From positions 1 through 46,616 of the forward strand of contig JAJCYI010000225.1 in assembly GCA_029263015.1 (NCBI GenBank): DNA of 46,616 nucleotides. The letters run 5' to 3'. Of this stretch, positions 20,801 through 46,032 are shown piece after piece. The position numbers and the translations under genes were made by a program. Source of the DNA: Saprospiraceae bacterium. GTDB taxonomy: Bacteria; Bacteroidota; Bacteroidia; Chitinophagales; Saprospiraceae. Each line of letters opens with the position of its first letter. Positions within the stretch are counted from its first letter, which is position 1. Below the pieces are notes generated by a model. It saw nothing but the letters and a program-made list of their open reading frames with translations, made no database searches and had not been told where the DNA came from.

Positions 20801-23646
20801 ACAGTATAGGTACCCGCACTGTTATAAACTACGGTCGGGTTTTCGTCAGTGGAACTGGAGGGGTCTCCGCCAGGAAAATCCCAATCATAGTCCACGGCGT
20901 TGGCAGAGGACTGATTGATGAATTCAACAGTAAGTGGTGCACAACCTGTCGTTACATTGGACGAAAAAGCAGCTACAGGAGCAGTCACGACAACAATGGT
21001 TTGAGTTGAGGTAACTGTGTCACAATTGTTAATTGCACTCAATACTACTTCATAAGTTCCATCATCAGCATAAGTATGGCTTGGATCAACATCTGTACTG
21101 GTATTGCTATCTCCAAAATTCCATATGTAGCTTGTAGCTTCAGTTGAGCTATTGGTGAAATCCACGGTCAACCCGTTTATATCGCTTGTAAAGCTTGGCG
21201 AGGGCAATGGATTTACCGTTATATAATCAGTGAAAGTCACGGTATCCGAGCCAGCTGTGTTAAAAGCAATCAAAGTCACATCGTAAGTGCCAGGGGTGTT
21301 ATAAATCACGGTAGGCTCTTCTACTGTGGAGGAATCAGGATCACCTCCTGGGAAATCCCATTCGTACGAGGTGGTATTTGAAGAAGACAGGTTCTCAAAT
21401 GTAACAGAGAAGGGAGGACAACCAACCGTGACTGGTGCAGAAAAACCAGCACTTGGCGGTGTTTCAATGACCACTTCATGGTTGACAGTAGCGGTACCGC
21501 AATCGTTGGTCGCTTCCAAGGTCACATTAAACATACCGTTGGTCGCGTACACGTGGGTGGGGTTTTCCAAGGTAGAAGTATCGCCATCTCCAAAGTCCCA
21601 CAAAAAGGTCATCGGACCAATGCCTTGGGAGTTGTCACTTTGATTGACAAATGTTACTGTATCAACATTTACCGCCGAAGAAAAACCGGGTGTTGGGATC
21701 GTACCAACGAATATATAGTCAGCTATGGTTTTCGAATTATCCCCAGCGGGATTAGAAACAGTCAGTTTCACATCATAAATCCCTGGTGCAGAATAATTTA
21801 CCACTGGATCTTCGGCTCCCGATGTTGCAGGTGTACCACCTTCAAATTCCCAAAACCAGACGATCGCATTTGGGGAGCCAGTAGATGTAAATTCCACTTC
21901 CAACGGCGCACACCCAGTGATTGGATCGGCCATAAAGTCTGCTGCTGGCGGAGTAAACACAGGAATATTAATGGTGAAAATATTATCGCCACAACTGTTG
22001 GACGCAGTCAATGTTACATCGTAAAAATCATCGAACGCATACACATGGACGGGGTTTTCTTCTGTGGATGTATTACCGTCTCCAAAGTCCCAACTATAAC
22101 TCGTTGCATTCAAAGAGTTGTTATCGAAGATCATGGTCAAGTCCACTTGGTCGAAGCCAAACACTGCAAGGGGAACATCATCAACGACAATATAATCTAC
22201 CAATGTAAATTCATCGTTGCCAACACTGTTTGTTGCGATCAAAGAGACATCAAATACACCTGCTACATTATACGTAACGATAGGGTTTTGCTGGCTAGAA
22301 GAACTTGGCGTACCTCCAGCAAAAGTCCAGCTCCAAGAAGTTGGATTATTCAAACTCAAATCCGTGAATTGAACCGTCAACGGTACACAGCCTGAAGTTG
22401 GGTTGCCTGAGAAATTAGCGATTGGAGCCGACAAGCCTGGACAGGTGGTCAAACAATTCCTGGTTGGGTAGTAACCGTTAATCTGTGAAAGGGATTGACC
22501 AGACCAAGTATTTGTGTTGTTTACGGAAGGGGCCATGATCGTACCACTTCCAGGAGCATCGTGCGTTGCACTGAAATTGTGCCCCAATTCATGGGACCAC
22601 AATACTCTCAGAAGATTGGAATTAGACGTGAAGTCCTGTAAACAATGATACCTACTGTTATTACAAATCCCATTCAGGTATGCAATACCGACAGTGCCTC
22701 CATTAAAATTCCGATTAGTCCACAAGCCCGCTACATCATAAGGAAAAGCGAAGCCACCAGAATTGCCCCAACTACGGAAGGAACCAAGCAGCGCACCTGC
22801 ACTAGTAGAATTGGTCCAAGGGTCGCCCCCAGAGGTAGTCACTGTAAAAAATTCTGAAATGAAAAATTGCAATTCATCGTTGAATTCATCGTCATAGTTG
22901 GTTTGTACATTGTTCAAAACAGCAGTTTCTTGAGCCTCAACGGCGGCGCCTGAACCATATTTGTTGAACATCAACTCATCTGAAGCGATAGCAATTTCTA
23001 CCTCTAAGCAGCCCATCATCTTCTGTCCTTCTTCGCCATGACCGTGTCCATCATCATCGTTATCGTGTTGCAAGAACTTTAAAGTTTGCTCGGCCATTTC
23101 CTCGGCACCACATTTAACGCCGGGGCGTGGCTGTACATCTGAAGCAGAATAAATAACAAACAAATCTTTGGGCTGGTCTTTGAGGAAATACCAAAGCGGC
23201 TCAATGAAATACATCCCTCCGTCATTTTTTACGAAGCCATAGATAAAGTTATCATCTACCGTTAAGGCGACCGATCCACCTCCCGGTGCATCCAAGTGGC
23301 CCCGGAAAGTAATGTTTTCTTCTGGAGGAAGGATTTTTATCCCCTCATCCGTCACCACTCTTCTCATGTAGCCAGGCTTTCGAATATCCCTTGGATAAAG
23401 CGAGATGTCCCAATCATACTCACTGCCCAACTGGAGGTTGAACTCCATATAATCTCCAGCATCTTTTACATAGGTGTCAAATGCTGTTACATCAATCTGG
23501 AAAACATCCCAATCTTTGAATTGGTATTGCAGTTCAGGAGATTCATCAAAGTTGCTTTTTAGACTAGCCCCTTTGAAAGAGGGCTTTTGCGAAAACAATA
23601 AAACAGTCGTGAAAAGTAGGAATAGAGTTGTAAATAAACGGGCCAT
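17827..23646 (-). CDS. Secreted reprolysin-like metalloprotease with 18 PKD domains and T9SS sorting domain
   Basis: A 1939-residue exported protein from the start at 23646, where the signal peptide (MARLFTTLFLLFTTVLLFS) begins. The N-terminal region (about 25-190) resembles a propeptide. The protease domain (about 200-395) carries HELGHNFSATHD (352-363), the HExxHxxxxxHD zinc motif of reprolysin/ADAM-type peptidases, followed by the Met-turn-like IMAPS. From about 401 to 1855 there are 18 PKD domains in strict alternation: a longer form with a Gly-Cys pair and W-x-F-x-GG, and a shorter form with W[DN]FGD and usually TNDCG. The last 80 or so residues are a T9SS type A sorting domain (FNIFPNPNNGRF). 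It is probably a surface or secreted adhesive protease. It is monocistronic. Confidence 0.93.
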   Translation of the reverse strand: MARLFTTLFLLFTTVLLFSQKPSFKGASLKSNFDESPELQYQFKDWDVFQIDVTAFDTYVKDAGDYMEFNLQLGSEYDWDISLYPRDIRKPGYMRRVVTDEGIKILPPEENITFRGHLDAPGGGSVALTVDDNFIYGFVKNDGGMYFIEPLWYFLKDQPKDLFVIYSASDVQPRPGVKCGAEEMAEQTLKFLQHDNDDDGHGHGEEGQKMMGCLEVEIAIASDELMFNKYGSGAAVEAQETAVLNNVQTNYDDEFNDELQFFISEFFTVTTSGGDPWTNSTSAGALLGSFRSWGNSGGFAFPYDVAGLWTNRNFNGGTVGIAYLNGICNNSRYHCLQDFTSNSNLLRVLWSHELGHNFSATHDAPGSGTIMAPSVNNTNTWSGQSLSQINGYYPTRNCLTTCPGLSAPIANFSGNPTSGCVPLTVQFTDLSLNNPTSWSWTFAGGTPSSSSQQNPIVTYNVAGVFDVSLIATNSVGNDEFTLVDYIVVDDVPLAVFGFDQVDLTMIFDNNSLNATSYSWDFGDGNTSTEENPVHVYAFDDFYDVTLTASNSCGDNIFTINIPVFTPPAADFMADPITGCAPLEVEFTSTGSPNAIVWFWEFEGGTPATSGAEDPVVNYSAPGIYDVKLTVSNPAGDNSKTIADYIFVGTIPTPGFSSAVNVDTVTFVNQSDNSQGIGPMTFLWDFGDGDTSTLENPTHVYATNGMFNVTLEATNDCGTATVNHEVVIETPPSAGFSAPVTVGCPPFSVTFENLSSSNTTSYEWDFPGGDPDSSTVEEPTVIYNTPGTYDVTLIAFNTAGSDTVTFTDYITVNPLPSPSFTSDINGLTVDFTNSSTEATSYIWNFGDSNTSTDVDPSHTYADDGTYEVVLSAINNCDTVTSTQTIVVVTAPVAAFSSNVTTGCAPLTVEFINQSSANAVDYDWDFPGGDPSSSTDENPTVVYNSAGTYTVTLTVTNSVGSNSVTVTNYIIVDTVPVAGYTSTSNGLTVDFDNTSTNATSYSWDFGDGNTSTEEDPSHTYDDDGTYAVELTATNDCGSVTTTETVVVVTVPTAGFSANSSTGCSPLTVQFSNQSSVNATDFDWDFPGGDPASSTDENPTVVYNDPGTYDVTLIVSNAAGSDTVTMIGYVVVNTVPDPSYTVSTNVFVATFTNTTIGATSYSWDFGDGESSTETNPVHEYGGDGTYTVVLTATNDCGTMTYTSEVVVTSLPQAGFTTAQTVGCSSFTVEFEDQSSSNTTSWEWEFPGGDPSSSTDQNPTVVYDNVGTYTVTLTASNSLGENTVTQTDYITVITTPTPSFTSVNNLLTVNFTNTTTGATSYSWDFGDGNTSSDENPTHTYDDDGTYEVELTATNDCGSTTTTETVVVVSMPTAGFSANENNGCAPFTVEFANQSSANATSYDWDFPGGNPSTSTDENPTVTYNAAGTYDVTLIASNAAGNDTVTIMDYVVVGDVPNTSFTADVNGFTVQFMNTSTNPPNSGNATFEWDFGDGNMSTEENPEHTYDEDGTYEVTLIVTNDCGSKTINGQFTVVSLPTAGFSAEQTTGCEPFEVHFSNESTTNAESFEWEFPGGMPATSSDENPVIIYNTPGIYDVTLTVSNAAGDDTETLVGFITVEVLPSPGFGFTVNGSQAGFTNESTNTTSVSWDFGDNETSTENDPVHTYMEDGAYTVTLIATNDCGSVETTQIVVIATEGPIAAFTTESNEGCLPFEVTFVNLSSGNTESFLWTFEGGDPATSTEENPIVNYNAVGSFNVVLIAFNGLGSDTFSIDDYIIVETTPVPSFSADDDMGTVTFTNNSTNATSFEWDFGDGESSTEENPVHTYAASGEYEVTLTATNDCGFSANTQTIAVNATAVGEIPGISEFNIFPNPNNGRFTLVLQGEALGELQVSFTNLLGQVIMQDQVDFRSGNITRDFAFNDLTAGMYIFQLKSGNKALYRKIVVE

Positions 23647-23804
23647 GTGTGATCGAGATTTATTTAATGAGCGATTATTATTTCCAGATGGATAATTTGA
23701 AAAGATGGAATGAAACGAAAGAAGAACCATTGGTGTTCCGTCTTTTTTTTTAAAATTGGAGGACAACATAAACGAACAGGCAAACAAAAAACAGAATTTA
23801 TAGG

Positions 23805-33280: not shown

Positions 33281-34489
33281 ATGAACAAAAAGAAAATAAT
33301 CAACGACCCCGTTTATGGCTTCATCACCATCCCTTTCGACATTCTGTTTGACCTGATCGAGCATCCATATTTCCAGCGGCTGCGACGCATCAAGCAGGTC
33401 AGCCTGACACATTATGTGTACCCAGGGGCGCTGCACACTCGCTTCCACCATGCCATCGGGGCACTGCATTTGATGGGCCAGGCCATTGAGGTACTGCGGT
33501 CGAAAGGAGCGGAGATCACGGAAGAGGAGGCGAGGGCTGTTTCAATCGCTATTTTGCTGCACGACATTGGGCACGGGCCATTTTCACATACGCTCGAACA
33601 CACTTTGGTAAACGTGCCCCACGAAGAAATCTCGCTATTGTTCATGGAACGTCTCAACGAGGAATTTAATGGTAAGCTTGACCTGGCTATTTCTATTTTC
33701 CAAAACCAATACAAGAAAAAATTTCTCCATCAGCTCATCTCAGGCCAACTCGATATGGATAGAATGGACTACCTCAACCGCGACAGTTTTTTTACAGGGG
33801 TTCACGAGGGCGTAATCGGTTACGACCGCATCATTAAAATGCTGGCAGTTCACAATGGCGAGTTGGTGGTGGAAGAAAAGGGTATTTATTCCATCGAAAA
33901 ATTCCTGATTGCCAGGCGGCTGATGTACTGGCAGGTGTACCTGCACAAAACAGTATTGGTAGCTGAACAAATGTTGGTGAAAACATTAAAAAGGGCCAAG
34001 CAACTGGCCTCCCAGGGCATAGCATTAAACATCCCAAAATCTCTTTCCTTTTTCCTTTACCAAAATTTTTCTCTCGAAGATTTTGATAAAAACAAAGAGT
34101 TGCTCGACCACTTTGCCAAGCTTGACGACCATGACATATTCAGTTCACTTAAAGTCTTCAGGGATCATCCTGACCCAGTCCTGTCCTTTCTATCTTCCTG
34201 CATTGTTGACCGCCGATTGTTCAAAATCGAAATAAAGGACGAGCCTTTCTCACCTATAGATATTTCTGAAATCAAGAACCGAATTGAATCATTGAATATT
34301 TTACCAAAAGAAAACCTGGATTATCTGGTATTTGGAGGAGCGGAAACGAACCATGCTTATAGCACATCAAAAGATGAAATCAATATCCTTTTTAAAAACG
34401 GGGATGTGCTGCCGATGTCCCAGATTTCTGACTTTGGCATCCAGACGAGGTTGGTGAAGAAGTATTATCTGTGTTATCCGAAAGGGTGA
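33281..34489 (+). CDS. HD-domain phosphohydrolase, dNTPase-like
   Basis: A 402-residue soluble protein. The HD domain (about 45-200) shows TRFHHAIG with His56 as first ligand, LLHDIGHGPFSH (92-103) with the His94-Asp95 pair and His98/His103, and the later DRMDYLNRDSF with the distal Asp. This motif order is shared with deoxynucleotide triphosphohydrolases and the YwfO type of HD protein. The C-terminal half is a helical region without a recognised family. It probably cleaves phosphates from a nucleotide; the substrate is not evident. The small antitoxin-like gene starts about 80 bp downstream. Confidence 0.88.
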   Translation: MNKKKIINDPVYGFITIPFDILFDLIEHPYFQRLRRIKQVSLTHYVYPGALHTRFHHAIGALHLMGQAIEVLRSKGAEITEEEARAVSIAILLHDIGHGPFSHTLEHTLVNVPHEEISLLFMERLNEEFNGKLDLAISIFQNQYKKKFLHQLISGQLDMDRMDYLNRDSFFTGVHEGVIGYDRIIKMLAVHNGELVVEEKGIYSIEKFLIARRLMYWQVYLHKTVLVAEQMLVKTLKRAKQLASQGIALNIPKSLSFFLYQNFSLEDFDKNKELLDHFAKLDDHDIFSSLKVFRDHPDPVLSFLSSCIVDRRLFKIEIKDEPFSPIDISEIKNRIESLNILPKENLDYLVFGGAETNHAYSTSKDEINILFKNGDVLPMSQISDFGIQTRLVKKYYLCYPKG

Positions 34490-34571: not shown

Positions 34572-34805
34572 ATGGGTGAAAAAAAAGAATTTGACGACAG
34601 TATTGAACAAATTTTGGAAGTCACAAAATCTTCCGCAGCTATTGCCATTGCTGAATCGAAAGCATTAGGACTTCCTATTACATACTTGAAAAACGGGAAA
34701 ATCATTAAGGAGTACCCTGACGGGAAAATTGAAATTTTAGAAAACATTGACCCTTCTGACAGCACATCCTATAAAAAAGGACAAAAAATCAATGTCAAAA
34801 AATAG
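34572..34805 (+). CDS. Small protein, putative antitoxin of the zeta-like toxin
   Basis: A 77-residue protein. It begins with a charged helix (GEKKEFDDSIEQILEVTKSSAAIAIAESKALG), here cited only as residues 2-34, then short beta-type segments ITYLKNGKIIKEYPDGKIEIL. It overlaps the next gene by 14 bp, indicating translational coupling. Together with a downstream zeta-toxin-like P-loop protein this is the usual antitoxin position. Similar short proteins with a NGKIIKEYPDG-type motif are common partners in such pairs. The start at 34572 was chosen over 34539 as it is nearest the conserved part; the choice is not certain. Confidence 0.65.
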   Translation: MGEKKEFDDSIEQILEVTKSSAAIAIAESKALGLPITYLKNGKIIKEYPDGKIEILENIDPSDSTSYKKGQKINVKK

Positions 34806-35532
34806 CACAAGTCGTCTCCGCATGTTTGCCGGCCCAAATGGCTCAGGGAAGAGTACTATATTTCACAGTATAAAAAGAATGCTCCACATCGATCTCTTCA
34901 TCAATGCAGATGAGATAGAGAAAGAATTCAATGATTCAGGATTCATCAACCTTTATGACTTTGGCATTAAACCAATGGAAAGCAATTGGCAAGAGTTCTT
35001 AAAAAACTCAACCCTCGTTTCAAAAATCAAAAGCACTGGAATTGAAATTCAACTCTCACTGAAAAACAACATCATTGTACATCAAACCAAACGATCCTTT
35101 TCCTATGAAGCCGCATTAGTAGCTGAATTTCTAAGATTGCAACTCATACAAACCAACCGATCCTTTTCATTCGAAACCGTCATGTCTCATAGCTCGAAAG
35201 TTGACATCCTTGATTTTTCGATGCAGAATGATTTCAGGAATTATCTATATTTTATTTGCACAGAATCCCCTCTTATCAATAAAGAAAGGGTCAGGCTCAG
35301 AGTCGAGAAGGGCGGCCACCCTGTACCCCTCGAAAAAGTAGAAGAAAGATATTTTAGGTCGCTGGATTTACTTGCCCTTGCTGTTAAAAGAACTTATAAA
35401 TCTTTTATTTTTGATAATTCTGGTTCGGAACAAAAGCTCATAGCAGAAGTATATCAAGGAAAGAAAATCACCATCCACAACGACTCCGTTCCCAATTGGG
35501 TCAACAGACATCTTTTTGAAAAACTTATTTAA
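34792..35532 (+). CDS. Zeta-toxin-like P-loop kinase
   Basis: A 246-residue protein. Walker A motif AGPNGSGKST lies at 13-22, followed by LFINADEIEKEF (35-46) and RSFSFETVMSH (about 121-131), the pattern of zeta-toxin-type P-loop kinases. Zeta toxins phosphorylate UDP-N-acetylglucosamine and block cell-wall synthesis; other members of the fold phosphorylate other nucleotides, so the target is not certain. The gene overlaps the small upstream gene by 14 bp. The start at 34792 fits the overlap and avoids an N-terminal extension from 34747. An inverted-repeat element follows 12 bp after the stop. Confidence 0.8.
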   Translation: MSKNSTSRLRMFAGPNGSGKSTIFHSIKRMLHIDLFINADEIEKEFNDSGFINLYDFGIKPMESNWQEFLKNSTLVSKIKSTGIEIQLSLKNNIIVHQTKRSFSYEAALVAEFLRLQLIQTNRSFSFETVMSHSSKVDILDFSMQNDFRNYLYFICTESPLINKERVRLRVEKGGHPVPLEKVEERYFRSLDLLALAVKRTYKSFIFDNSGSEQKLIAEVYQGKKITIHNDSVPNWVNRHLFEKLI

Positions 35533-35779: not shown

Positions 35780-38700
35780 TTACCTCAACGGCGTTCCAAC
35801 ACTGAACACTGGATATACTGATTCTTCTTCAGAAAAACCGAAGGTCAATGATAGGGTCAAGGCTTCATTTAACGGAACAATATAAAAACCAAAACCATAT
35901 CCATTGTGCCAGTCGCCGTTTTCGACAGCTACATCAGAAAAGACCCGCCCAAAATCATAAAAAGTTTTCAGCCCGATTTTCAATGGTACTATTGATGTTC
36001 CCGCTTCTACGAACTGATAGCGCAATTCCACATTAAAAAATGCAGTGGATTCACCCGTGAAACGATTTTGCACAAAACCCCTAAGTCCATTGTTGGTACC
36101 CAAGTTCGGTAGTTTGTACCAAGGGGCTGCGCCCCAGCTCGTCGCCCCCCCTGCCCTGAGACCTAAAGTGACTGGGTGTTTTCTCTTGGTGGACATATAA
36201 TATTCCATGTCTCCTTTCAAAATACCAAAACTAAAATTAGAGGTCGTACCGTCTATGACAGAATAATTTTCGTAACCTATTACTGCCCTTGCACCATTGT
36301 AGGGCAAACCTTTCCGATCCCTAAAATCCAAATCGATTTTTAAGCTCCAAGGTATCATGGTCCACTGTTCATTGGCTCCGCGAATATCAGTAGCATTTTC
36401 AGTGAGAAACGTGTTTTCAATACGCTCCGACTCATCCTGCTCAAATCCAACTTTTATTTCAAAAAGACTCTTTTGCCAAAAATCACGAATTAGCCCAATC
36501 GAAATATGCTCGGCATTCACGGCTGACTCGTAATAGCCAACGCCAAACTCATCATCCATGTTTTCGGAACTATTGCCAAAACCATAGAAACGGTTCTGTA
36601 ATCTCGGCTGGGCGACAAATGCATCTACCATAAAATCCCATTTACGTACCGCCTGGTGAAAACGACCTTGATAACCAAATCTTACATTTCCTTCGGTCGT
36701 GTACCCTAAACCAACTTTGTGCTTGCTGTGATAGTCGTCTTTTTCAAATTTCCGTACGGTCCAACTGCCAGATACCCCAATGCCAAAACCTGTGTAACTA
36801 CTGTAGCCAAGACTAAATAAAGGCAAAAAATAATTATAGTTGAACCGTTGGCGATCATATTCGTAAAGATTTGAATTCCAGTTATTTACAACCTTGCCTT
36901 TACCTTTCAATCCTTTTTTGGAGATAAATGATTTGTCATAGAGTAAAGTTTTGGCCTGCGACTCATCATTAAAAATATCTTCGCCGGGGCCACCAAAAAC
37001 GCTTACTTTGATCTTGCTTTTTTTTCCATTTCCAGCGATGTTGAATTGGTCGTCGTCGCCAAGTCCCCACACCCGAACTTCTTTGGTTTCATAAGGAAGA
37101 AAAGTGCGGTCGTATAAAAGCTTGTCCCCCTTCTCATTGTTTTTCATGTCATACATCCGCACGCGTACCGAACCGTCCGTCTGGTGTTCTATTTCAAAAC
37201 ATTCTTCATCTTTTGAACCTGTTACATCTACTTCTTTATTGAGTAGCGAATAATAAGTTTCCGCAGCTTCTGAAAGGTGCTTAATACGGTTTTTCAATTT
37301 GCCCTCCACTTCTTTTCCTGACAAAGCCATCACTTCGGGAGGCAATTTGCTAACCGCATTTTCAATATCGGTTTCAGAAATATGATCCTGGATATATTTT
37401 GCCTGTTCCATAAATAGGCTTTTCGGAGCCTCTTGCATCAGGAAACGATCCATGTGTTTTGCCTGAAACGTGAGTGAGCGGATATCACTAAAGTCAAACC
37501 CGAAATCCTCAAGGTTCTGCATCCCGAACTTGCGGTCGGCCAACCAGTTGATGAGGCCGTCCTGACGGGAAAAAACGTGATCCCGGTCACGCGGGATGGG
37601 TCGGTACATCCGCCCTTTATCCGTTTTGTACATGGCCCATTTCCAATTGTCTTCGTGCTTGCTCCAATCCCCAACGAGTATGTCAAAAAGACGTGCCCGC
37701 ACAAATTCCTCCACGTCAAGATGAGCATCTTGATCCTTATAAAAGCGGTTGAACATATCCACACTCTTCTCAATTTTATCTGCTTTTGCAAAGTGTTCCC
37801 CTTTAGAATTAGTCTTGCCAGGATTCTCTTCCAACATACCAAATAGGTTGCCGTATTTTTTCCGAAACGGGCCAAGTTTAGCATCATCTGGCAAACGGTA
37901 AAGCGTTGGGGTTGCATGGAGTATGCTGATTTCTTCCAACAATGGTGCAACCACCATGGCGCCATATGGGTGCTGTGTAGAGGTGAAATCTTGGACCACG
38001 GGTGCGGCAATGGTATTTTTCAAAATATAGTTCAGCGCCTTTGTCGGGTCTTTGTCAACAGAGCGGAAGGTATAGACGGAACCATTTCCCGAGCGGAATT
38101 TCAGGGAAGTTGTTTGGCGGCCACCGCCTTTTTTATAAATAGCCAACCCGCCGTATGTTTCATCCAAATCGAGATAAGGAACAGTAACAGGCTCAGCCCA
38201 GGTAGTCCTATAATGCCGACCAAACAAGAAGCGTTTCATTCCCTGAGCCTCATACCCTTCACCTCCGGGAATGGTTGCTTTTACCGCGAATTTGAACTGC
38301 ATTTGATCTGTGGCCCTTGCGCCAGATTTACACGGCGCGAATGAGGTGTTAAAAATAATACCCTCACCTTGAACAGGGTCTTCTGTACAGGAACTGTGAA
38401 ATAATTTACGAGTTGCTTTTTGTTGGAAAACGCCATTTTCATTTTGCAAAAAAGCGGCATCCACCTGGCCATTATCATAATAATCCAGCCGCATGATGCC
38501 TGCTGCTTTTTTACTGAAAACTGTCTGGTTATTCCTTCCTGCATACTTGGCCTTGGTCGGTGCCCCACTGTTTATACAAATATTGTCGCTGCCTTCCAAT
38601 ATCTGCTGATTGTGCTCATGAGCGGAGGCATAAATGAGGTTTTCATGAAAATAAAATAGGTTTTTCATGGTGCTGACAAAAGGATCCAGATGTTCGTTGG

Positions 38701-39472
38701 CGAGGTCATATTGGTTGCCTGCGTTGGCATGGAAAGAGGTGGTAAAAAGGCCAACAATAGGAAGTGGTTTGAAGTGGTCGCCAAATGAATAACGCCCTCC
38801 ATAATTACCTAATGAATAAAATGGGTGGTGTCCAACGATCAGCACGTTCCGGTCTTGGTATTCCTCAACAGCATCTTCGAGTTCTTCTTTCAAATTTTCT
38901 TCCGAAAGTCCTTCGCAGATGGCATCGGTAGGCCGGGGTTTGTCATAAGGGTGGTTCCACCATTGCGTGTTGAGGGTGATGATGGCGAGACTTTCTCCCA
39001 TATCAAACACTTTTGGCCCAGGGCAACCATTTTTCACTGCCCAGTGAGTCCGGTCATATTTTTTATCTTTTAGATAATCCTTTATCCGATTTTCTAAATT
39101 CCCTAAACTACCCTGTCCTCCCTTTTTACTACTGTTCCATTCACGGTCGCCAGGTACAATGATGAGGTTGCCATTGGGATATCCTTCAACCTTGTCAGCC
39201 ACTCTTAAAATTGGCTCGATCTGCTCTTGGTGATCGTATTTGCCAATCTTGACATTCACAAGATCGCCGTTGAGGATGAGGGTAAACGGCATTTCTGTTT
39301 CACTAAAAACCTGATCTAATTGTTGGATAAAGGCTGGTTTGTCTTCGACATCGGTGAAGTTACCAAACATGAAAACCCGGTGGGCAAAATTAGATTGAGA
39401 AAAGAGCGGATTCAAGGCCAGTAGGCAAAGAACCCATTGTAGTTGTATGCAAAAAGTTGATTTGGTCATCAT
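35780..39472 (-). CDS. Phosphoesterase-like / kinase-like / Omp85-barrel fusion, copy 1 (degenerate phosphoesterase)
   Basis: A 1230-residue exported protein with a signal peptide (about 1-26). Domain 1 (about 30-320) is calcineurin-like: LNGDLVN (67-73), GHHPF (214-218) and SAHEHN (283-288) are kept, but the first motif is FGNF (36-39) in place of GDxG and the third is PGDREW (107-112) in place of GNHD. Region 2 (about 395-740) has GGGRQTTSLKF, GDWSKHEDNWKW near 602 and YRPIPRDRDHVF near 627, recalling the catalytic and metal loops of HipA/CotH/FAM20-type kinases (inference). The C-terminal part (about 890-1230) is an outer-membrane barrel with the Omp85-type LRGF motif near 1127. It is a paralogue of the gene 180 bp upstream. 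Confidence 0.8.
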   Translation of the reverse strand: MMTKSTFCIQLQWVLCLLALNPLFSQSNFAHRVFMFGNFTDVEDKPAFIQQLDQVFSETEMPFTLILNGDLVNVKIGKYDHQEQIEPILRVADKVEGYPNGNLIIVPGDREWNSSKKGGQGSLGNLENRIKDYLKDKKYDRTHWAVKNGCPGPKVFDMGESLAIITLNTQWWNHPYDKPRPTDAICEGLSEENLKEELEDAVEEYQDRNVLIVGHHPFYSLGNYGGRYSFGDHFKPLPIVGLFTTSFHANAGNQYDLANEHLDPFVSTMKNLFYFHENLIYASAHEHNQQILEGSDNICINSGAPTKAKYAGRNNQTVFSKKAAGIMRLDYYDNGQVDAAFLQNENGVFQQKATRKLFHSSCTEDPVQGEGIIFNTSFAPCKSGARATDQMQFKFAVKATIPGGEGYEAQGMKRFLFGRHYRTTWAEPVTVPYLDLDETYGGLAIYKKGGGRQTTSLKFRSGNGSVYTFRSVDKDPTKALNYILKNTIAAPVVQDFTSTQHPYGAMVVAPLLEEISILHATPTLYRLPDDAKLGPFRKKYGNLFGMLEENPGKTNSKGEHFAKADKIEKSVDMFNRFYKDQDAHLDVEEFVRARLFDILVGDWSKHEDNWKWAMYKTDKGRMYRPIPRDRDHVFSRQDGLINWLADRKFGMQNLEDFGFDFSDIRSLTFQAKHMDRFLMQEAPKSLFMEQAKYIQDHISETDIENAVSKLPPEVMALSGKEVEGKLKNRIKHLSEAAETYYSLLNKEVDVTGSKDEECFEIEHQTDGSVRVRMYDMKNNEKGDKLLYDRTFLPYETKEVRVWGLGDDDQFNIAGNGKKSKIKVSVFGGPGEDIFNDESQAKTLLYDKSFISKKGLKGKGKVVNNWNSNLYEYDRQRFNYNYFLPLFSLGYSSYTGFGIGVSGSWTVRKFEKDDYHSKHKVGLGYTTEGNVRFGYQGRFHQAVRKWDFMVDAFVAQPRLQNRFYGFGNSSENMDDEFGVGYYESAVNAEHISIGLIRDFWQKSLFEIKVGFEQDESERIENTFLTENATDIRGANEQWTMIPWSLKIDLDFRDRKGLPYNGARAVIGYENYSVIDGTTSNFSFGILKGDMEYYMSTKRKHPVTLGLRAGGATSWGAAPWYKLPNLGTNNGLRGFVQNRFTGESTAFFNVELRYQFVEAGTSIVPLKIGLKTFYDFGRVFSDVAVENGDWHNGYGFGFYIVPLNEALTLSLTFGFSEEESVYPVFSVGTPLR

Positions 39473-39652
39473 GTTTTTTTAACAAATAATAGGGATCAAT
39501 AGAATAATTTTTCGCCTAAAGGCAAATTACAATTAGGTAGAGTCGGGGCGCTGCCCCTCAACAATTCTTTCCGCTTATTATCTGCTACAAGCGGGAGGGG
39601 AGGCCTCTTTTACAACTGTCTCGTAGTCTCACCTCAGGTCAATAAAACATTC
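39473..39652. other. 180-bp spacer between the two fusion genes
   Basis: It holds a hairpin CCGCTT/AAGCGG (39571-39576, 39589-39594) and GC-rich stretches such as GGGGCGCTGCCCC (39545-39557). It could carry a terminator or attenuator between the paralogues. No gene is seen. Confidence 0.4.
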
Positions 39653-42600
39653 CTAAAATCCCATCCCCATTTTAAAGGTAAATCTCGGGCCATCTTCATT
39701 ATCCTCACGGGGTTGATAAAGCCCAAACGACATGGTCAACAGATCGACCGGGGCGATATACAATCCTCCGCCATAGCTGTAATGCCAGGTATCAGATTCA
39801 ACATCTTCCACCCAAACTTTGCCATAGTCAAACCCAGTAAAAATGCCAAGCGTGAAAGGTAGCGTCCGGTTATAGCTGCTAAACAATTTTGCCCGCAGGT
39901 CAAAATTTTGCCAATAGGCCGTTTTACCAAAAAAGCGGTCGGATCGATAGCCTCTCAAGTTGGAGGTAATGCCGCCGCCGATGCGTTGTTGCTGGAAAAA
40001 TTCAAACTCGTTTCCGAGGTTGGTGCCGAAGCCAATGCGGGTAGCAAAAATGACCGTCTCTTTGCGGTCGATCGGTTGAAAAAGAGAAAGCTCGGCATTC
40101 AAGGAGCGGTACTCGCCATGCTGGTCGCGGAGGTTGGTCAACCAGTTGATGTGGCTGATAAAACTAATCCCTCTTTTTGGAGAGAAAAAGTTGTCGAGGC
40201 TGGAGTACTCAAAACCAAGCTCAAGCCCACCGTAATATTTCCGTTCAAAAATATCATCGGTCGGTTCAAATTGATCGGTAATAAAACGTCCTGCCGTCTC
40301 TTCAACATCCGTGAGGTCGAATACTGGTCCGATGCGGAAAAATCCAGCATTGCCTGCGACCCGCTTTTTAATAGCTGGAGCAATATAGACCTTGCTCTGA
40401 CGAGTGCGGTAAAAGTCAATGCCTTTCACTACCTTGGGGCTGTCATTTCCATCACCAAAATAATTGAAGGCATAAGAAGGGGTATGGAAAATGCCTTCCA
40501 AATAAAAATCCCATTTGCCAAAAACTTCTAAATAATCGCCTACATAATCGAAGTTAAAAGCTTTGGTTTCAATGGCAAAGCTCGTATAAAAGGTGTGAAG
40601 CGTGGAATAAGGTATCTTTCTATATTTATAGGTCGTCAGTATTCCAGAAAAACCAAGCAGAAACCCATCGTCGGGATTGGAACCGATCACTGGTAGCGGC
40701 AATAAAAAATCATACTCATGGTCAATGGAACGGCGATCGTATAAATTATACTCCCTATTGCTACTCCGCTTGTCCTTGGCCTCGGAGCCTAATGTCAGCT
40801 CGTTCTTACGAAGGTCGTCGTAAAAAAAAGTCTTTTTCCCCGCTCCGCTCACCTTGGATTCGTCAACAAATTCGTCCTGGCCAAGCCCTCCGATACTCCT
40901 AATTTTAATCCCCTTGTTCACATCTCCAGTTATGTGAAATTGGTCTTCGTCGCCGATACCAAAAAGATGGACTTCTTTGGTGACAGAACGTTCAAAAACA
41001 CGCTCAAAAACCTTCTCTTTTTTCTTTCCTTTTTTCTCTGAAATTTCCCAGACTGTCACCTGAGTGCGCTTGTCGTCAAGGCGTTCGACTTCAAAGAGTT
41101 CGTTCTCGTCGGTTCCATAAACATCTACTTCTTTCGACAATATTTCATAAAACTTACGGGCATAAACCATGAGATCATCCCGCCGTTGCTTTAAGGACAT
41201 TTTAATATGATCGGCAGTGAGTTCTTGAACTTTATCCGGCCACACATCGAAAGCGTTGTCAATGACCTCATCAGTCAGGTTTTCTTTTATAAATTTCACT
41301 TCCCGCTCCCAGTCCTCCCATTCGAGTTCGTTGATAAAAGCATTGTCGAACGAAAGGGAACTCCAAGCCAAATATTTCACCGTCTTAATCTCTGGGCCGT
41401 ACTCCCGCAACTGCCTGGCAAAGGGATCAACCCAATTGGCCAGCCGGATCAAAAGGCCATCGTATTTGGAAAATGGCTGGTCGCGATCACGGGGGATTGG
41501 TCGATATATTTTTTTGCCATCTTCCTTAAAACTCGCCCAGCGCCATTGGTCGTCATGGCGGTCGAAGTCGCCGACCAGCATATCTAAGAGGCGACTCCGT
41601 AATGCCCAAGGTTGGTCTATTTTGTGGTCGTTGTTTTTGGTGATCTTTTCCGCCACATCGAATGTACTGATGATTTTCTCAGAACCACCAAACACTTCAG
41701 CATCGCCGTAATCCCCTGCGGGTCGTTCTTCCACCAGATAAACCCCTCCGCCAAATATGTCATTATTGACACCTAGGGCTGGCTGTTTTGGAACATAATA
41801 AAAATTGGGCGTAGTGTGGTAAACATTGATCGCATCGGCCATTGAAGGAATGGCTGTCGGGGCAAATGGGTGGGCAGATAAAAAATTGTCTTCCAAAATA
41901 AAAACCGCCGCTGTCATTTTGTTCAATGGATACGGCAGGATGCGCGACGCATCTTTGGTCAGGCCCCGCATGGCAAACTGCCTCCCCGTCTTTGGGTTTT
42001 GCAGGCGGAGTGAATTGGTCTGGCTGCCCCCTCCCCTTTTTACCGGCACAACGCCGCCATCAAATTTGGTGATGTCGAGCACAGGGAACTTGTACTTGTT
42101 CATATAAATCTCCCGGTTGAGGTCGCCCAAAAACATCCTGTGCAGCGCTCCGGCTCTGGGGATTTCATTTTGGACCACAAAAACCTCCATGCTGTCCAAA
42201 CCCTTTTCAAACTCTGGAAATGAAGTCGGGATGTTTTCTTCGATGATGTCGAGCTTGTCATTCACCTTTTCACGGAAAACAACCTTGGCATCCGTCCCTT
42301 CCTCATTGGGCTGCCAGAATTGCACCCAAGCTTCTCCATTTTCATAAAAATCCAAGGTTGAATAACCCATTGTCCCATAAGCGAAATGAGCCCCTTTTCC
42401 AATGCGGCTGGGGTCTTTTTGGGACCCTCCTCCGCTCACGACAAACTTCTGTAACCCGTTTTCCAAATATTGCAAATTGTGCTCATGCCCAGAGACAAAA
42501 ATAAAGCTGCCAAAAGTATTTGCACTGACAAGCATGGTTTCCATCAGGTCTTTGTTGAGTTGGTGAACCTGATCCTGCTTGCTGCCAATAGACCCGCGGA

Positions 42601-43456
42601 TCAGCGCCGCTAGAGAGCCGATGCCAGGCATTGGGATATAAAGCGGATCAGCAATATCCGTCAGTGGGAAAAGATGCTGCTTGGCTGTAAAATTGCCACC
42701 ATGCGGGCCATTGGTAAAAGGTGGGTGGTGGGTGGCAATGACGATGTTGCGGCTGCGGTATTTTTTCACCGCATTCAGAAAAAGGTATTTAAACATTTCT
42801 CTGCTTTTCGCCAGACAATCATCGTTGATCTTAGGTTGCTTGTTCCAGTCTTCCAGCCACCATTGGGTGTCCACCACTATAATGATAAGCTTCTTCCCGA
42901 TCTCGATGACCTCTGGACCGGGGCAGCCATTTTCCGGAAGAAAATAATCCTCCCAATCATCATCGTCTTTATCATCTATGCCCCTTTGTTTGTTGATGTA
43001 TTTGTTGACGTATTTCTGCTGTCTTTTTAAACCTTTCAGGCCCTGTCCCCAATCATGGTTTCCAGGTATGAACACAGGTCTGCCTTTGTAATCAGCCAAT
43101 GCATCCAACTGGACTTTCAGGCGGTGTTCTGACAGTTCTCGCCCATCATCGTCACGGTGCTGAAGGCCGGAAGGGTACACATTGTCGCCAAGAAACAGAA
43201 TGGAGCTGTTTTCACTTTCGTTGGCCAGCACACCTTTCAGGTATTTTAATGCCGGCGGCGTTTCACCCAATTTAGCATGACCAGCATCACCTACCAAATA
43301 AATGGTGTGTTCCAGTTTCAGCGAAGGATCGGGTGTATTCTGCTCCCATCCCTGGGAATCGTTGGAGAGGTTGTATTTATAATTGGCACATGAAGTGACC
43401 AGCAAAAAGCAAAAGGAGGAGATGAGAGGGTAAACCTGTAATTTCATGTAGTTCAT
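39653..43456 (-). CDS. Phosphoesterase / kinase-like / Omp85-barrel fusion lipoprotein, copy 2 (intact phosphoesterase)
   Basis: A 1267-residue protein with a lipoprotein signal (FLLVTSC, Cys23). Domain 1 (about 48-360) is a complete calcineurin-like phosphoesterase of purple-acid/TRAP type: GDAGH (56-60), GDNVY (90-94), GNHDW (132-136), THHPPF (242-247) and GHEHN (323-327). Region 2 (about 440-780) has KRGGGSQTNSLRL near 470, GDFDRHDDQWRW near 627 and YRPIPRDRDQPF near 650. The C-terminal barrel (about 920-1267) has LRGY near 1165 and an aromatic end (FKMGMGF). It is probably anchored in the outer membrane with phosphoesterase and middle region on one face. Its substrate is unknown. The start could also be Met4. 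Confidence 0.82.
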   Translation of the reverse strand: MNYMKLQVYPLISSFCFLLVTSCANYKYNLSNDSQGWEQNTPDPSLKLEHTIYLVGDAGHAKLGETPPALKYLKGVLANESENSSILFLGDNVYPSGLQHRDDDGRELSEHRLKVQLDALADYKGRPVFIPGNHDWGQGLKGLKRQQKYVNKYINKQRGIDDKDDDDWEDYFLPENGCPGPEVIEIGKKLIIIVVDTQWWLEDWNKQPKINDDCLAKSREMFKYLFLNAVKKYRSRNIVIATHHPPFTNGPHGGNFTAKQHLFPLTDIADPLYIPMPGIGSLAALIRGSIGSKQDQVHQLNKDLMETMLVSANTFGSFIFVSGHEHNLQYLENGLQKFVVSGGGSQKDPSRIGKGAHFAYGTMGYSTLDFYENGEAWVQFWQPNEEGTDAKVVFREKVNDKLDIIEENIPTSFPEFEKGLDSMEVFVVQNEIPRAGALHRMFLGDLNREIYMNKYKFPVLDITKFDGGVVPVKRGGGSQTNSLRLQNPKTGRQFAMRGLTKDASRILPYPLNKMTAAVFILEDNFLSAHPFAPTAIPSMADAINVYHTTPNFYYVPKQPALGVNNDIFGGGVYLVEERPAGDYGDAEVFGGSEKIISTFDVAEKITKNNDHKIDQPWALRSRLLDMLVGDFDRHDDQWRWASFKEDGKKIYRPIPRDRDQPFSKYDGLLIRLANWVDPFARQLREYGPEIKTVKYLAWSSLSFDNAFINELEWEDWEREVKFIKENLTDEVIDNAFDVWPDKVQELTADHIKMSLKQRRDDLMVYARKFYEILSKEVDVYGTDENELFEVERLDDKRTQVTVWEISEKKGKKKEKVFERVFERSVTKEVHLFGIGDEDQFHITGDVNKGIKIRSIGGLGQDEFVDESKVSGAGKKTFFYDDLRKNELTLGSEAKDKRSSNREYNLYDRRSIDHEYDFLLPLPVIGSNPDDGFLLGFSGILTTYKYRKIPYSTLHTFYTSFAIETKAFNFDYVGDYLEVFGKWDFYLEGIFHTPSYAFNYFGDGNDSPKVVKGIDFYRTRQSKVYIAPAIKKRVAGNAGFFRIGPVFDLTDVEETAGRFITDQFEPTDDIFERKYYGGLELGFEYSSLDNFFSPKRGISFISHINWLTNLRDQHGEYRSLNAELSLFQPIDRKETVIFATRIGFGTNLGNEFEFFQQQRIGGGITSNLRGYRSDRFFGKTAYWQNFDLRAKLFSSYNRTLPFTLGIFTGFDYGKVWVEDVESDTWHYSYGGGLYIAPVDLLTMSFGLYQPREDNEDGPRFTFKMGMGF

Positions 43457-43975
43457 TCGTTAGTGATTCCCAAAGGTAGTGAATGCATTGAATTTTGGTT
43501 TTTCTTCAGTGCCAACAAATAACCGCCCCCCTTTGAGGAAACCTTATCGGCAGTGGGCCTGTTGCAGCCCATCGCATCGATACTGACCAAGTCATCCAGG
43601 AGTGCCGGGATCGCTGTCTTTTCACTGCTCTTCTTTTGTACTTTTTTCCCAAAAGGCCAGCTTTTTGATGACCGTATCTTTCAATTTCTTCGCAATCTTC
43701 CGCTCCACTCAGCACTGCACAAAGTGCGACCACCAAAATCTCGTTCAAATAATGCTTTACCTTTTTCGCTATCCGGAAATCCGGTACTTCTTTGAATATC
43801 TCTTGTAATTCCATCCGATAAAACCAACAATCTTAGCCTTATCATAATTTCGTGCGTTTAACCTATACAAAGGCTATTAAAAAAAGTTTAGAACAAAACT
43901 TCCCTATTCAAAAATAACTACTTCTTACCTTCACCTTTTATTTTGTGATCTTAATTTAATACATACACCTACAGA
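43457..43975. other. Gap holding a transposase remnant and a leader
   Basis: This stretch between divergent units contains the ISAs1-type transposase remnant (about 43490-43814) and about 160 bp of AT-rich leader for the Pycsar-effector-like gene. No terminal inverted repeats of an insertion sequence could be identified around the remnant. Confidence 0.6.
43490..43814 (-). pseudogene. ISAs1-family transposase remnant
   Basis: The first 55 or so codons from 43814 read FKEVPDFRIAKKVKHYLNEI and a LSGAEDCEEIERYGHQK segment, matching the ISAs1 transposase N-terminal domain. After GLLGKKYK the similarity continues in another frame as KTAIPALLDDL, VSIDAMGCN and GGYLLALKKNQ, which correspond to the middle DDE region. 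The stretch expected between them, including the DGK catalytic segment, is missing, and the C-terminal third is absent. It is thus frameshifted, internally deleted and truncated; full-length transposases have about 370 residues. Confidence 0.8.
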
Positions 43976-44614
43976 ATGGAAGATGAAAAAAGGAATTTGA
44001 AAGGAATAAACAAAGTCCTCATGAAAGAGCTGAGTATCGACAAAGAGCAGTTAAAAGCCCTGAAAAAAAAGCTCAAGAAATTAGAGGGCTACCCTGAAAA
44101 AGGAATTGAAACCTGGTTTCGGATAACTTCAAAAAACCTGTACACCAGGCGGCAGATTGTGGATACCAAATCAAACATCCTCATTACAGTCAACTCCATT
44201 ATCCTGTCTATCATTTTGGGCAGTTTATATCCGCTTTTGGACGAAGATCCCCACCTGCTTTGGGCGATGGTGCCCATGATTCTGACCAACCTCTTTTCCA
44301 TTGCTTATGCCATTTTTGCCACCCGTCCAGTGATCGCTTCCGGCAAATTTACCAAAGAAGAAATCAAGCAAAAGAAAGCGAGGTTGATGACTTTTGATGA
44401 TTTCAGCCAGATGCCGTTGGAAGATTATGAATGGGCTGTTGATGAAATGATGCAGGACAGGGGTTTTCTTTATGACACCATGAAAAGGGACATCCACCAG
44501 CTTGGTGTGGATTTGAGGAGGCGGTACCAGTTCATCAAAATTGCTTACAATATCTTTTTGACCGGCATCACTATTTCAATCCTTGCATTTGGGGCGTGCC
44601 ATGCATTTTTTTAG
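43976..44614 (+). CDS. Pycsar-effector-type membrane protein (PycTM/DUF5706-like)
   Basis: A 212-residue protein. A charged coiled-coil start (about 1-45, LKALKKKLKKLEG) precedes a core with three hydrophobic segments at about 66-88, 93-117 and 188-210. TKSNILITVNSIILSIILGS and the ARLMTFDDFSQMPLEDYEWA region match the PycTM (formerly DUF5706) family, membrane effectors that can be triggered by cyclic pyrimidines in Pycsar phage defence. The full core is shared with residues about 215-408 of the next gene, so the two are paralogues. No cyclase gene is adjacent, so a defence role is only inferred from family. Confidence 0.82.
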   Translation: MEDEKRNLKGINKVLMKELSIDKEQLKALKKKLKKLEGYPEKGIETWFRITSKNLYTRRQIVDTKSNILITVNSIILSIILGSLYPLLDEDPHLLWAMVPMILTNLFSIAYAIFATRPVIASGKFTKEEIKQKKARLMTFDDFSQMPLEDYEWAVDEMMQDRGFLYDTMKRDIHQLGVDLRRRYQFIKIAYNIFLTGITISILAFGACHAFF

Positions 44615-44805: not shown

Positions 44806-46032
44806 ATGTCTGAGAACAATAACCTCCTCACAAAAGCTGAAAAACTGGCTTCTGAAATTCTTCAGAATGAGATTTCGTCTGAATTGACATTTCACAATTA
44901 CGGCCATACCAGAATGGTTGTCGAAGCAGTCAACACAATTGGCAAGGCTGAAAAGTTGGATGAAGGTGAAATTGAAATAGTGCAGTTGGCGGCCTGGTTT
45001 CACGATACTGGTTACCGTGACACTTATGAGGGGCATGAAGAAAAAAGCCAGGAAATTGCAGTAGAATTTCTAAAATCGGAAGACGTTCCATCGGCTAAAA
45101 TAGAAAAAGTGACAGGATGCATTCTGGCCACACAATTGGACGTGGCGCCAAAAAATAAATTGGAAGAAATACTGTGCGACGCTGATATGCTTCATATTTC
45201 AAATGAAAAATATGAAATGTATGCTGACAACCTAAGGGCAGAATGGTCCAAAGTAAACAATAAGAATTACACTGATTTTGAATGGCACCAGATGAACCTG
45301 GAGTTTGTTTCCAAATATAGATTCTATACCTCGTTCGGACAAGAAGCAGTCGCCAAAGAAAAAGAAAAAATTATCGACAAATTGCAGAAGAAATTGAAAA
45401 AATTACAAAAGCAATTTGATACGGGCTTGATAAATGAGCTGGGTGTTACCCCGGAAGAATTAAAGGCGATGAAGAAGAAATTGCAAAAGGCCGAGGGGAG
45501 GCCCGAAAGGGGTATTGAAACCATGTTCAGGCTTACCTCAAAAAACCACCTTACCCTGAGCAGCATGGCCGACAGCAAGGCCAACATCATGATCTCGGTC
45601 AATGCTATTATTATTTCCATACTCATCGGGTCGCTCATGCAAAAATTGGATAGCAATCCCCATCTAATTGTCCCCACGACTATCTTGTTATCGGTCAATC
45701 TTGGATCAATTGTTTTCTCGATACTGTCCACAAGGCCCAACATCTCCACCGGGTTTTTCACCAGGGAGGACATTGAAAACCAGCGTACTAATTTGCTGTT
45801 CTTTGGCAATTTCCACAAAATGAAACGGGACGATTACCATTGGGGAATGACCCAGCTAATGGATAATGGGTCCTATTTATATTCAAGCCTTATTGACGAC
45901 ATCTATTTCCTGGGGGTTGTTTTGGCAAGGAAATATAAATACCTGAGAACTTCCTACAACATCTTTATGTATGGATTGGTGGTGGCAGTTATTGCCTTCG
46001 TGGTCTCGAACTTCTTTATTCAACCCAATTGA
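44806..46032 (+). CDS. HD phosphohydrolase fused to a PycTM-type effector domain
   Basis: A 408-residue two-part protein. Residues about 8-185 form an HD domain: FHNYGHT (29-35) with His34, WFHDTGY (64-70) with His66-Asp67, and CDADML (124-129) with the distal Asp. A lysine-rich coiled coil (about 185-235) leads to a PycTM/DUF5706 domain (about 236-408) with hydrophobic segments at about 258-282, 288-312 and 380-404. HD domains of this kind hydrolyse nucleotide-type phosphodiesters or phosphates. A purine-rich tract (44763-44795) precedes the ATG. The gene follows its paralogue by 191 bp on the same strand, and they are probably functionally linked. Confidence 0.85.
   Translation: MSENNNLLTKAEKLASEILQNEISSELTFHNYGHTRMVVEAVNTIGKAEKLDEGEIEIVQLAAWFHDTGYRDTYEGHEEKSQEIAVEFLKSEDVPSAKIEKVTGCILATQLDVAPKNKLEEILCDADMLHISNEKYEMYADNLRAEWSKVNNKNYTDFEWHQMNLEFVSKYRFYTSFGQEAVAKEKEKIIDKLQKKLKKLQKQFDTGLINELGVTPEELKAMKKKLQKAEGRPERGIETMFRLTSKNHLTLSSMADSKANIMISVNAIIISILIGSLMQKLDSNPHLIVPTTILLSVNLGSIVFSILSTRPNISTGFFTREDIENQRTNLLFFGNFHKMKRDDYHWGMTQLMDNGSYLYSSLIDDIYFLGVVLARKYKYLRTSYNIFMYGLVVAVIAFVVSNFFIQPN

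Follow-up and report, generated by a model that had tools for sequence, protein, structure and literature searches.

Proteins in which a soluble enzyme domain is fused to an outer-membrane beta-barrel of the Omp85 type have been described previously. Heinz and Lithgow (2014; PMC4104836) recognized a 'Metallo' subfamily, in which a PF00149 domain, labelled there as a metalloprotease, is joined to the barrel and which is given as conserved at the genus level; periplasmic or surface roles are discussed, and POTRA-free members of the Omp85/TpsB superfamily are described in the same paper, the main text of which does not contain the word 'kinase'. In PlpD, the enzyme part fused to the Omp85 barrel is a patatin-like domain, which was found exclusively in the periplasm (PMC11116518). 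Here, two tandem genes of a Saprospiraceae bacterium, referred to as copy 1 and copy 2, are analyzed, each of which encodes a phosphoesterase-like region, followed by a middle region and an Omp85 region. They are located on contig JAJCYI010000225.1 (assembly GCA_029263015.1), positions 1 to 46,616 of which make up the window, that is, the whole stretch of DNA under analysis (46,616 nucleotides). The middle region is predicted to adopt a kinase-like fold, and we give about even chances to the proposal that the protein is an outer-membrane-anchored periplasmic phosphotransfer protein acting in a phosphate-linked envelope system. Barrel, phosphatase, and fold are each known; neither their combination nor the family of the kinase-like domain was found described in the literature searched, and among the openly licensed full-text papers listed in the searches, none pointed to a description of the domain or of its neighbourhood. 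A first-pass annotation of this DNA had called the arrangement not described as such, which applies to the kinase-like domain but not to the phosphoesterase-Omp85 fusion, named already in 2014 (PMC4104836).

Both open reading frames (ORFs) are complete and lie exactly where the first-pass annotation had placed two tandem three-part fusions. Copy 1 (35780..39472, 1230 amino acids) and copy 2 (39653..43456, 1267 amino acids) are separated by 180 bp and are both encoded on the minus strand, to which all coordinates within the two genes refer. The glycine-rich, PIPRDRD, and LRG[FY] motifs are present as annotated, with GGGRQTTSLK, GDWSKHEDNW, PIPRDRD, and LRGF in copy 1 and GGGSQTNSLR, GDFDRHDDQW, PIPRDRD, and LRGY in copy 2. 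For the latter, the order phosphatase, kinase-like domain, beta-rich domain, and Omp85 barrel follows from the ORF, the Pfam matches, and the residues kept in both enzyme domains. The genome encodes a third paralogue of 1238 amino acids, copy 3, on a different contig; in the alignment, it shares 38% identity with copy 2, compared to 28% for copy 1. Since the architecture recurs in many relatives as well as in this third paralogue, it is not a product of chance.

The kinase-like domain of copy 2, delimited from AlphaFold2 and Foldseek results, comprises residues ~430-775 (41132..42169). An AlphaFold2 model of residues 415-800, calculated with 69 sequences, reached a predicted local distance difference test score (pLDDT) of 93.9 and a predicted template modelling score (pTM) of 0.91. 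When this model was compared with the PDB by Foldseek, nine matches had an E-value of 0.001 or lower, with kinases on top; the leading entries were CtkA (3akl, 5.6e-5), PI4KIIalpha (4hnd, 2.4e-4), and HipT (8ezr, 4.2e-4), while HipA ranked lower. Among the 50 matches listed, 49 are kinases by their title or by the identity of the protein (as for HipA, HipT, Yck2, and Gcn2); the remaining one is an unclear MTNK-DHOM model, and CotH is absent from these 50. A larger model of copy 2, covering residues 41-905 (pLDDT 91.9, pTM 0.79), again matched PI4KIIalpha and CtkA. The two-lobed kinase topology suspected from the sequence is, thus, supported by the predicted structure of copy 2, the best matches of which are kinases. 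The template modelling scores (TM-scores) are modest; the modelled middle domain would belong with the kinase-like domains of CotH, HipA, CtkA, and PI4K.

At the sequence level, the middle-domain profile was compared with 30 CotH and 30 HipA sequences, using decoy profiles for reference. CotH was matched with P = 0.0021 in the first run and with 6.3e-4 when 128 sequences were used, and HipA with P = 0.09 and 0.019, respectively. The corresponding scores were 31.7 for CotH, 20.9 for HipA, and 25.0 for the best decoy in the first run, and 35.4, 25.9, and 25.8 in the 128-sequence run; CotH against HipA, serving as positive control in the first comparison with decoys, scored 42.3. The CotH score, thus, rises above the decoys, whereas the HipA score is level with or below the best of them. 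The segment GDFDRHDDQW of copy 2 (41543..41572) was aligned onto the catalytic-loop segment of both families, and PIPRDRD (41480..41500) came to lie on the Asp of the WD segment in CotH. By alignment and profile comparison, Asp632 and Gln637 are the putative catalytic residues and Asp657 and Asp659 the putative metal-binding residues; the glycine-rich segment GGGSQTNSL lies at 42008..42034, as placed from the alignment. In copy 2, the putative catalytic Asp, the Gln, and the metal Asps occur in the order expected of a kinase. The loop pattern annotated for both genes, GD-x-x-[RK]H-x-D-[NQ]-W, is found in either copy, but copy 1 has SKH in place of DRH, with Asp replaced by Ser, Arg by Lys, and Gln by Asn.

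Conservation of these residues was followed in 59 profile-found relatives, mostly the best-scoring rows of a phylum survey, supplemented by rows from 20 genomes and from picked stretches; one of the rows is identical to a named row, and segments shorter than 250 residues as well as duplicates were left out of the counts. The loop Asp is kept in 46/59 and the loop His in 44/59, the two Asps of DRD in 51/59 and 49/59, Lys501 in 54/59, and Glu576 in 56/59. Most losses of putative catalytic residues fall in a branch that has no phosphatase. The expected conservation of the DRH and DRD positions, therefore, holds for the family overall; it does not extend to copy 1, in which the loop Asp is missing, nor equally to the residues as a set, as discussed below.

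The phosphatase domain of copy 2 (residues ~50-395, 42272..43309) is recognized by Pfam (Metallophos, 7.6e-7), by a phmmer match to human TRAP/ACP5 (3.5e-5), and by Foldseek, where its model matched pig purple acid phosphatase 1ute with 3.5e-14 and a TM-score of 0.66 by target; the PDB sequence matches of the domain are six tartrate-resistant purple acid phosphatases, at 3.5e-5 and weaker. All nine metal-ligand motif positions are filled in copy 2 (DDYNHHHHH). A phosphoesterase in the fusion is, accordingly, well founded for copy 2, but the annotation of one in each copy needs qualification, since copy 1 (approximately 38393..39391, by alignment), which reads ND-DRHHHH, has lost several of the ligands and has no Pfam Metallophos match; several ligands are also lost in copy 3. 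Complete ligands were counted in 69/90 rows, corresponding to 65/85 distinct sequences, copy 2 among them. Of 79 distinct sequences for which a kinase row is available, 59 are intact in both domains, 15 have lost phosphatase ligands only, one has a cut phosphatase and intact kinase residues, and four, namely copy 1, L089, L092, and L094, are altered in both active sites. Kinase residues are kept in 75/79 and phosphatase ligands in 59/79 of these sequences, a comparison biased towards the kinase because most of them stem from a motif-based scan, in which peptide patterns of two key motifs were used, so that motif conservation is partly given by construction. In 21 long-form profile-found rows, one of which is cut at its start, the corresponding numbers are 18 and 15.

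The motif [LIV]RG[FY] is characteristic of the Omp85/TpsB superfamily, and both LRGF of copy 1 and LRGY of copy 2 conform to it. The barrel of copy 2 (39656..40741) is recognized by Pfam Omp85 above cut-off (4.5e-8), while copy 1 has only a sub-threshold ShlB match; with NCBIfam Omp85_fam, copies 1 and 2 give 4.5e-25 and 2.6e-21, respectively, both below the cut-off of the model. The annotation of an Omp85 barrel is, thus, upheld by sequence. No POTRA match was obtained in either copy with Pfam. A beta-rich linker domain (residues 776-905, 40742..41131), evident from the secondary structure of the model and recurring as a module, precedes the barrel in copy 2. The beta domain and barrel of copy 1 together occupy approximately 35783..37231, as judged from alignment and the NCBIfam match, and the kinase-like domain, also placed by alignment, approximately 37232..38263, including the loop GDWSKHEDNW at 37643..37672. 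The N-termini of both proteins look by eye like signal peptides, and that of copy 2 (43388..43456) ends in a lipobox-like VTSC with Cys23; by a loose pattern, such a site is found in 34/60 full-length sequences, that of copy 2 among them.

Copy 1 has the same architecture as copy 2, with residues lost in both enzyme domains. In a quick tree, it groups with L089, L092, and L094 at 99% support in the Shimodaira-Hasegawa-like approximate likelihood ratio test. This grouping suggests that copy 1 belongs to a degenerate subfamily of long standing and is not the product of a recent decay.

Using a three-row profile, the kinase-like domain was detected in 143/395 Bacteroidota genomes (140/371 good ones) and in 74/171 genera. 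A scan of named genomes yielded at least 583 relatives, from which 80 loci were kept, one of them from a Chlorobiota record; the closest among these 80 is L004, from a 'Bacteroidetes bacterium' record. Relatives also occur in 5/72,556 plasmid records, where four carry the label 'hypothetical protein' and the fifth coincides with no feature; in phage records, none were found. Four architectures can be distinguished, comprising all four parts, a form without phosphatase (~870 amino acids), a kinase-beta form (~530-580 amino acids), and the kinase-like domain only (~430 amino acids). Since all searches for relatives began from the kinase-like domain or from the whole of copy 2, this spectrum is seen from that side; the kinase-like domain would be the core of the family. 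A split form is seen at loci L205 and L206 of two congeneric genomes (G251 and G055), where kinase-beta, phosphatase, and barrel are encoded by three consecutive genes on one strand, and the separate phosphatase has complete ligands. From this three-gene form it is concluded that the three parts belong together and serve one task; judged from gene organization, kinase-like domain, phosphatase, and barrel would probably act together. A separate phosphatase ORF is also found in L193, adjacent to a kinase-like ORF truncated where the contig ends. In the stretches L195-L202, which contain other short forms, no barrel or phosphatase ORF of the L205/L206 kind was found; the kinase-beta ORFs are arranged in divergent pairs in L200 and L201 and in a group of three in L202.

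The neighbourhood of the fusion contains recurrent partners. In the window, a PycTM protein of 212 amino acids (43976..44614, plus strand; Pfam PF18967, 1.4e-24) and an HD-PycTM protein of 408 amino acids (44806..46032, plus strand; PF18967, 1.1e-34; HD, 5.4e-6) are conserved neighbours of copy 2. In the stretch around the fusion, an HD and/or PycTM protein is present in 49/81 sources (the 80 named loci and the window, with Dyadobacter over-represented), a protein of ~792 amino acids in 31/81, polyphosphate kinase in 8/81, and SdiA-regulated-like proteins of two groups in 24/81 and 14/81. In Dyadobacter psychrophilus L020, the ~792-amino-acid gene, HD-PycTM, polyphosphate kinase, an SdiA-regulated-like gene, and the fusion are co-directional and almost gapless. 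Further counts were made in genomes chosen by hand from the phylum survey, in which the phosphatase-free form was judged from ORF length. In genomes with the long form, PycTM lies within 15 kb of the kinase-like match in 36/36 and within 5 kb in 31, at 1.4 PycTM matches per genome; in those with the phosphatase-free form, PycTM is present in 22/24, within 15 kb in 15 and within 5 kb in 10. Overall, PycTM is found within 15 kb in 51/60 carriers, and anywhere in the genome in 58/60 carriers versus 5/20 genomes lacking the domain (Fisher p = 2.7e-10, with genome relatedness ignored); the latter are the first 20 of the survey list and are nearer to the genome of the window than many carriers. Polyphosphate kinase is present in 60/60 carriers, within 15 kb in 20/60 and within 5 kb in 14/60, relatedness being ignored in this test as well. 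A class III cyclase lies within 6.1 kb of the kinase-like gene in at least 15/51 relatives, a lower bound picked by eye from a table. Genes for histidine phosphatases, SixA-like in our reading, were seen in 2/9 loci looked at. In G005, G066, G087, G152, and G359, polyphosphate kinase and PycTM are at most 15 kb apart, with the kinase-like gene elsewhere or on another contig; since the pair persists there, polyphosphate kinase and PycTM may form a unit of their own. The ~792-amino-acid family (e.g., L027 4157-6532 and L241 1401-3767) has no Pfam match above cut-off, one member showing a sub-threshold GAF match; its interpretation as a class III cyclase was dropped (hhalign P = 0.24).

According to the proposal made above, the protein would be exported and anchored in the outer membrane via its C-terminal Omp85-type barrel, while its soluble part, consisting of the purple-acid-phosphatase-like domain, the kinase-like domain, and the beta-rich linker, would most likely face the periplasm. 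Copy 2 would probably be active in both domains. Its phosphatase would free phosphate from an envelope phosphoester, and its kinase-like domain would transfer phosphate to a protein, lipid, or sugar of the envelope. For copy 1, a paralogue with both active sites altered, the role of a partner with regulatory or structural function is probable. The family would work with PycTM or HD-PycTM genes and, in part, with polyphosphate kinase and class III cyclases; given this conserved neighbourhood, it would probably serve a phosphate- or polyphosphate-linked envelope response. Polyphosphate as phosphate donor is a speculation suggested by the neighbouring genes. A wider scheme is regarded as doubtful. 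In it, a phosphate system would span the envelope, and the protein would form its part in the outer membrane; polyphosphate kinase, HD-PycTM, and a cyclase would act in and on the cytoplasm, an active periplasmic kinase-like domain, fed by ATP or exported polyphosphate, would phosphorylate an envelope component, the fused phosphatase would reset that component, and degenerate paralogues like copy 1 would tune the system.

Several observations weigh against the proposal. ATP is not to be expected in the periplasm, which is the main objection to a kinase there. None of the Pfam, NCBIfam, and PDB sequence searches gives the middle domain the name of a kinase: the middle region of copies 1 and 2 has no match in Pfam or NCBIfam, including CotH PF08757 and HipA PF07804; the profile of 69 sequences has no match among PDB sequences at E <= 10; and a Pfam scan of the 69 members gave scattered weak matches (best E-value 0.036), with neither CotH nor HipA among the 25 of 30 families covered. 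The TM-score to CtkA is modest (0.40 by query, 0.52 by target), the hhalign probability for CotH is 28%, the profile likeness to HipA is no better than that of the best decoy, and in the profile alignment PIPRDRD does not fall on the Asp expected in HipA. Loop Asp, Gln/Asn, and both DRD Asps are jointly kept in only 41/59 profile-found relatives, and the barrel branch without phosphatase, counted after removal of its three most divergent or cut rows, keeps the glycine-rich loop in 13-14/24 and the DRD Asps in 16/24 and 14/24. As for the neighbourhood, 40/60 carriers have no polyphosphate kinase within 15 kb, the two polyphosphate kinase matches of the own genome sit on other contigs, and neither polyphosphate kinase nor cyclase was seen among the window genes scanned. 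The kinase-like domain could, hence, be non-catalytic, binding a nucleotide, phosphate, or a partner and regulating phosphatase or barrel, with phosphate release for nutrient acquisition as the real function. This explanation, which we hold to be rather unlikely, draws on the objection concerning ATP, on the incomplete joint retention of the four residues, on the altered loop with which copy 1 and three relatives retain the domain, and on the complete phosphatase ligands in 65/85 distinct sequences. However, the phosphatase is not better kept than the kinase residues in the 21 long-form relatives (15 versus 18), and kinase-like ORFs without a phosphatase part exist.

The barrel with its LRG[FY] motif would also fit a protein that, like BamA, TamA, or TamL, serves assembly or translocation at the outer membrane, with the soluble domains taking the role of POTRA. 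The lack of a POTRA match in Pfam, the conserved enzyme residues of the soluble part, and the existence of barrel-free ORFs, albeit with the barrel as the gene next but one in L205/L206, make such a function improbable. Equally small is the chance that phosphatase and kinase-like domain reach the cell surface by way of the barrel. Behind Cys23, no lipoprotein surface-export signal was seen by eye. Translocation across the outer membrane is named as a possibility, by analogy with patatin-Omp85 proteins, in PMC4104836; on the other hand, the N-terminal patatin domain of PlpD is kept exclusively in the periplasm (PMC11116518). This weakens the surface location considered by the first-pass annotation, and by analogy with PlpD the soluble part of the fusion would probably lie in the periplasm.

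Compared with the described systems, the fusion resembles the 'Metallo' subfamily in carrying PF00149 N-terminally to a POTRA-free Omp85 barrel (in copy 2 by Pfam, in copy 1 by alignment). As described, it differs in distribution, genus-level conservation there (PMC4104836) contrasting with a kinase-like module in 74/171 genera here. With PlpD (PMC11116518) it has an enzyme domain fused to an Omp85 barrel in common, but that domain is patatin-like, and its periplasmic site is experimental, while that of the fusion is deduced. CotH is the better of the two kinase families by profile, with loop and following Asp segment aligned; CotH PF08757 proteins, however, have another architecture, the fusion has no Pfam CotH match, and its own genome encodes 13 separate CotH matches. 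CtkA, HipA, HipT, and PI4KIIalpha are among the best Foldseek matches, and the spacing of the D-x-H loop is that of HipA; unlike these, the fusion would be exported and membrane-anchored, and it has no sequence-level HipA match within the families covered. Purple acid phosphatases such as TRAP (ACP5) share the fold and, with copy 2, the nine ligand-motif positions; the domain described here is distinguished by its fusion to kinase-like and barrel parts and by the loss of ligands from copies 1 and 3, among others. The Pycsar system, which pairs a pyrimidine cyclase with a PycTM or PycTIR effector, resembles the present loci in that PycTM-type proteins are nearby, also in the window, and that a class III cyclase lies near the gene in some relatives; in contrast to it, PycTM is partly fused to HD, the window showed no cyclase, and a large outer-membrane protein and polyphosphate kinase are neighbours. 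A metallophosphoesterase of Riemerella (Niu 2021) came into question as a characterized relative but was not adopted, being listed in a review table as a type IX effector (PMC10202324).

The kinase-like domain, which in the fusions is joined to a phosphatase and an Omp85 barrel, is present in over a third of the sampled genomes of the phylum. If the proposed function is correct, opposing phosphotransfer activities would meet in a compartment for which hardly any such case is known, and the 'Metallo' Omp85 subfamily, labelled as a protease, would have to be relabelled as a phosphatase carrying a kinase-like domain. Should the latter be inactive, a large uncharted family of pseudoenzymes would still be at hand. 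The neighbouring genes, pointing to phosphate, polyphosphate, and cyclic nucleotides, offer an entry point to function.

Other genes of the window are mentioned for completeness. Between copy 2 and the PycTM gene lies an ORF of 102 amino acids (43506-43814, minus strand) with a DDE_Tnp_1-associated match, probably a transposase remnant. Just beyond copy 1, a P-loop ATPase is encoded (34747-35532, plus strand), with weak matches to AAA_33, Zeta toxin, and a PADLOC ATPase, and shortly beyond copy 1 also an HD-domain protein with an HD-associated region (33281-34489, plus strand). In addition to its CotH matches, the genome has 11 matches to class III cyclases, both sets being spread over several contigs. 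Farther away in the window, a protein of 1986 amino acids (17827-23787, minus strand) combines a reprolysin-like metallopeptidase with 17 stretches of PKD type and a C-terminal-type tail for type IX secretion.

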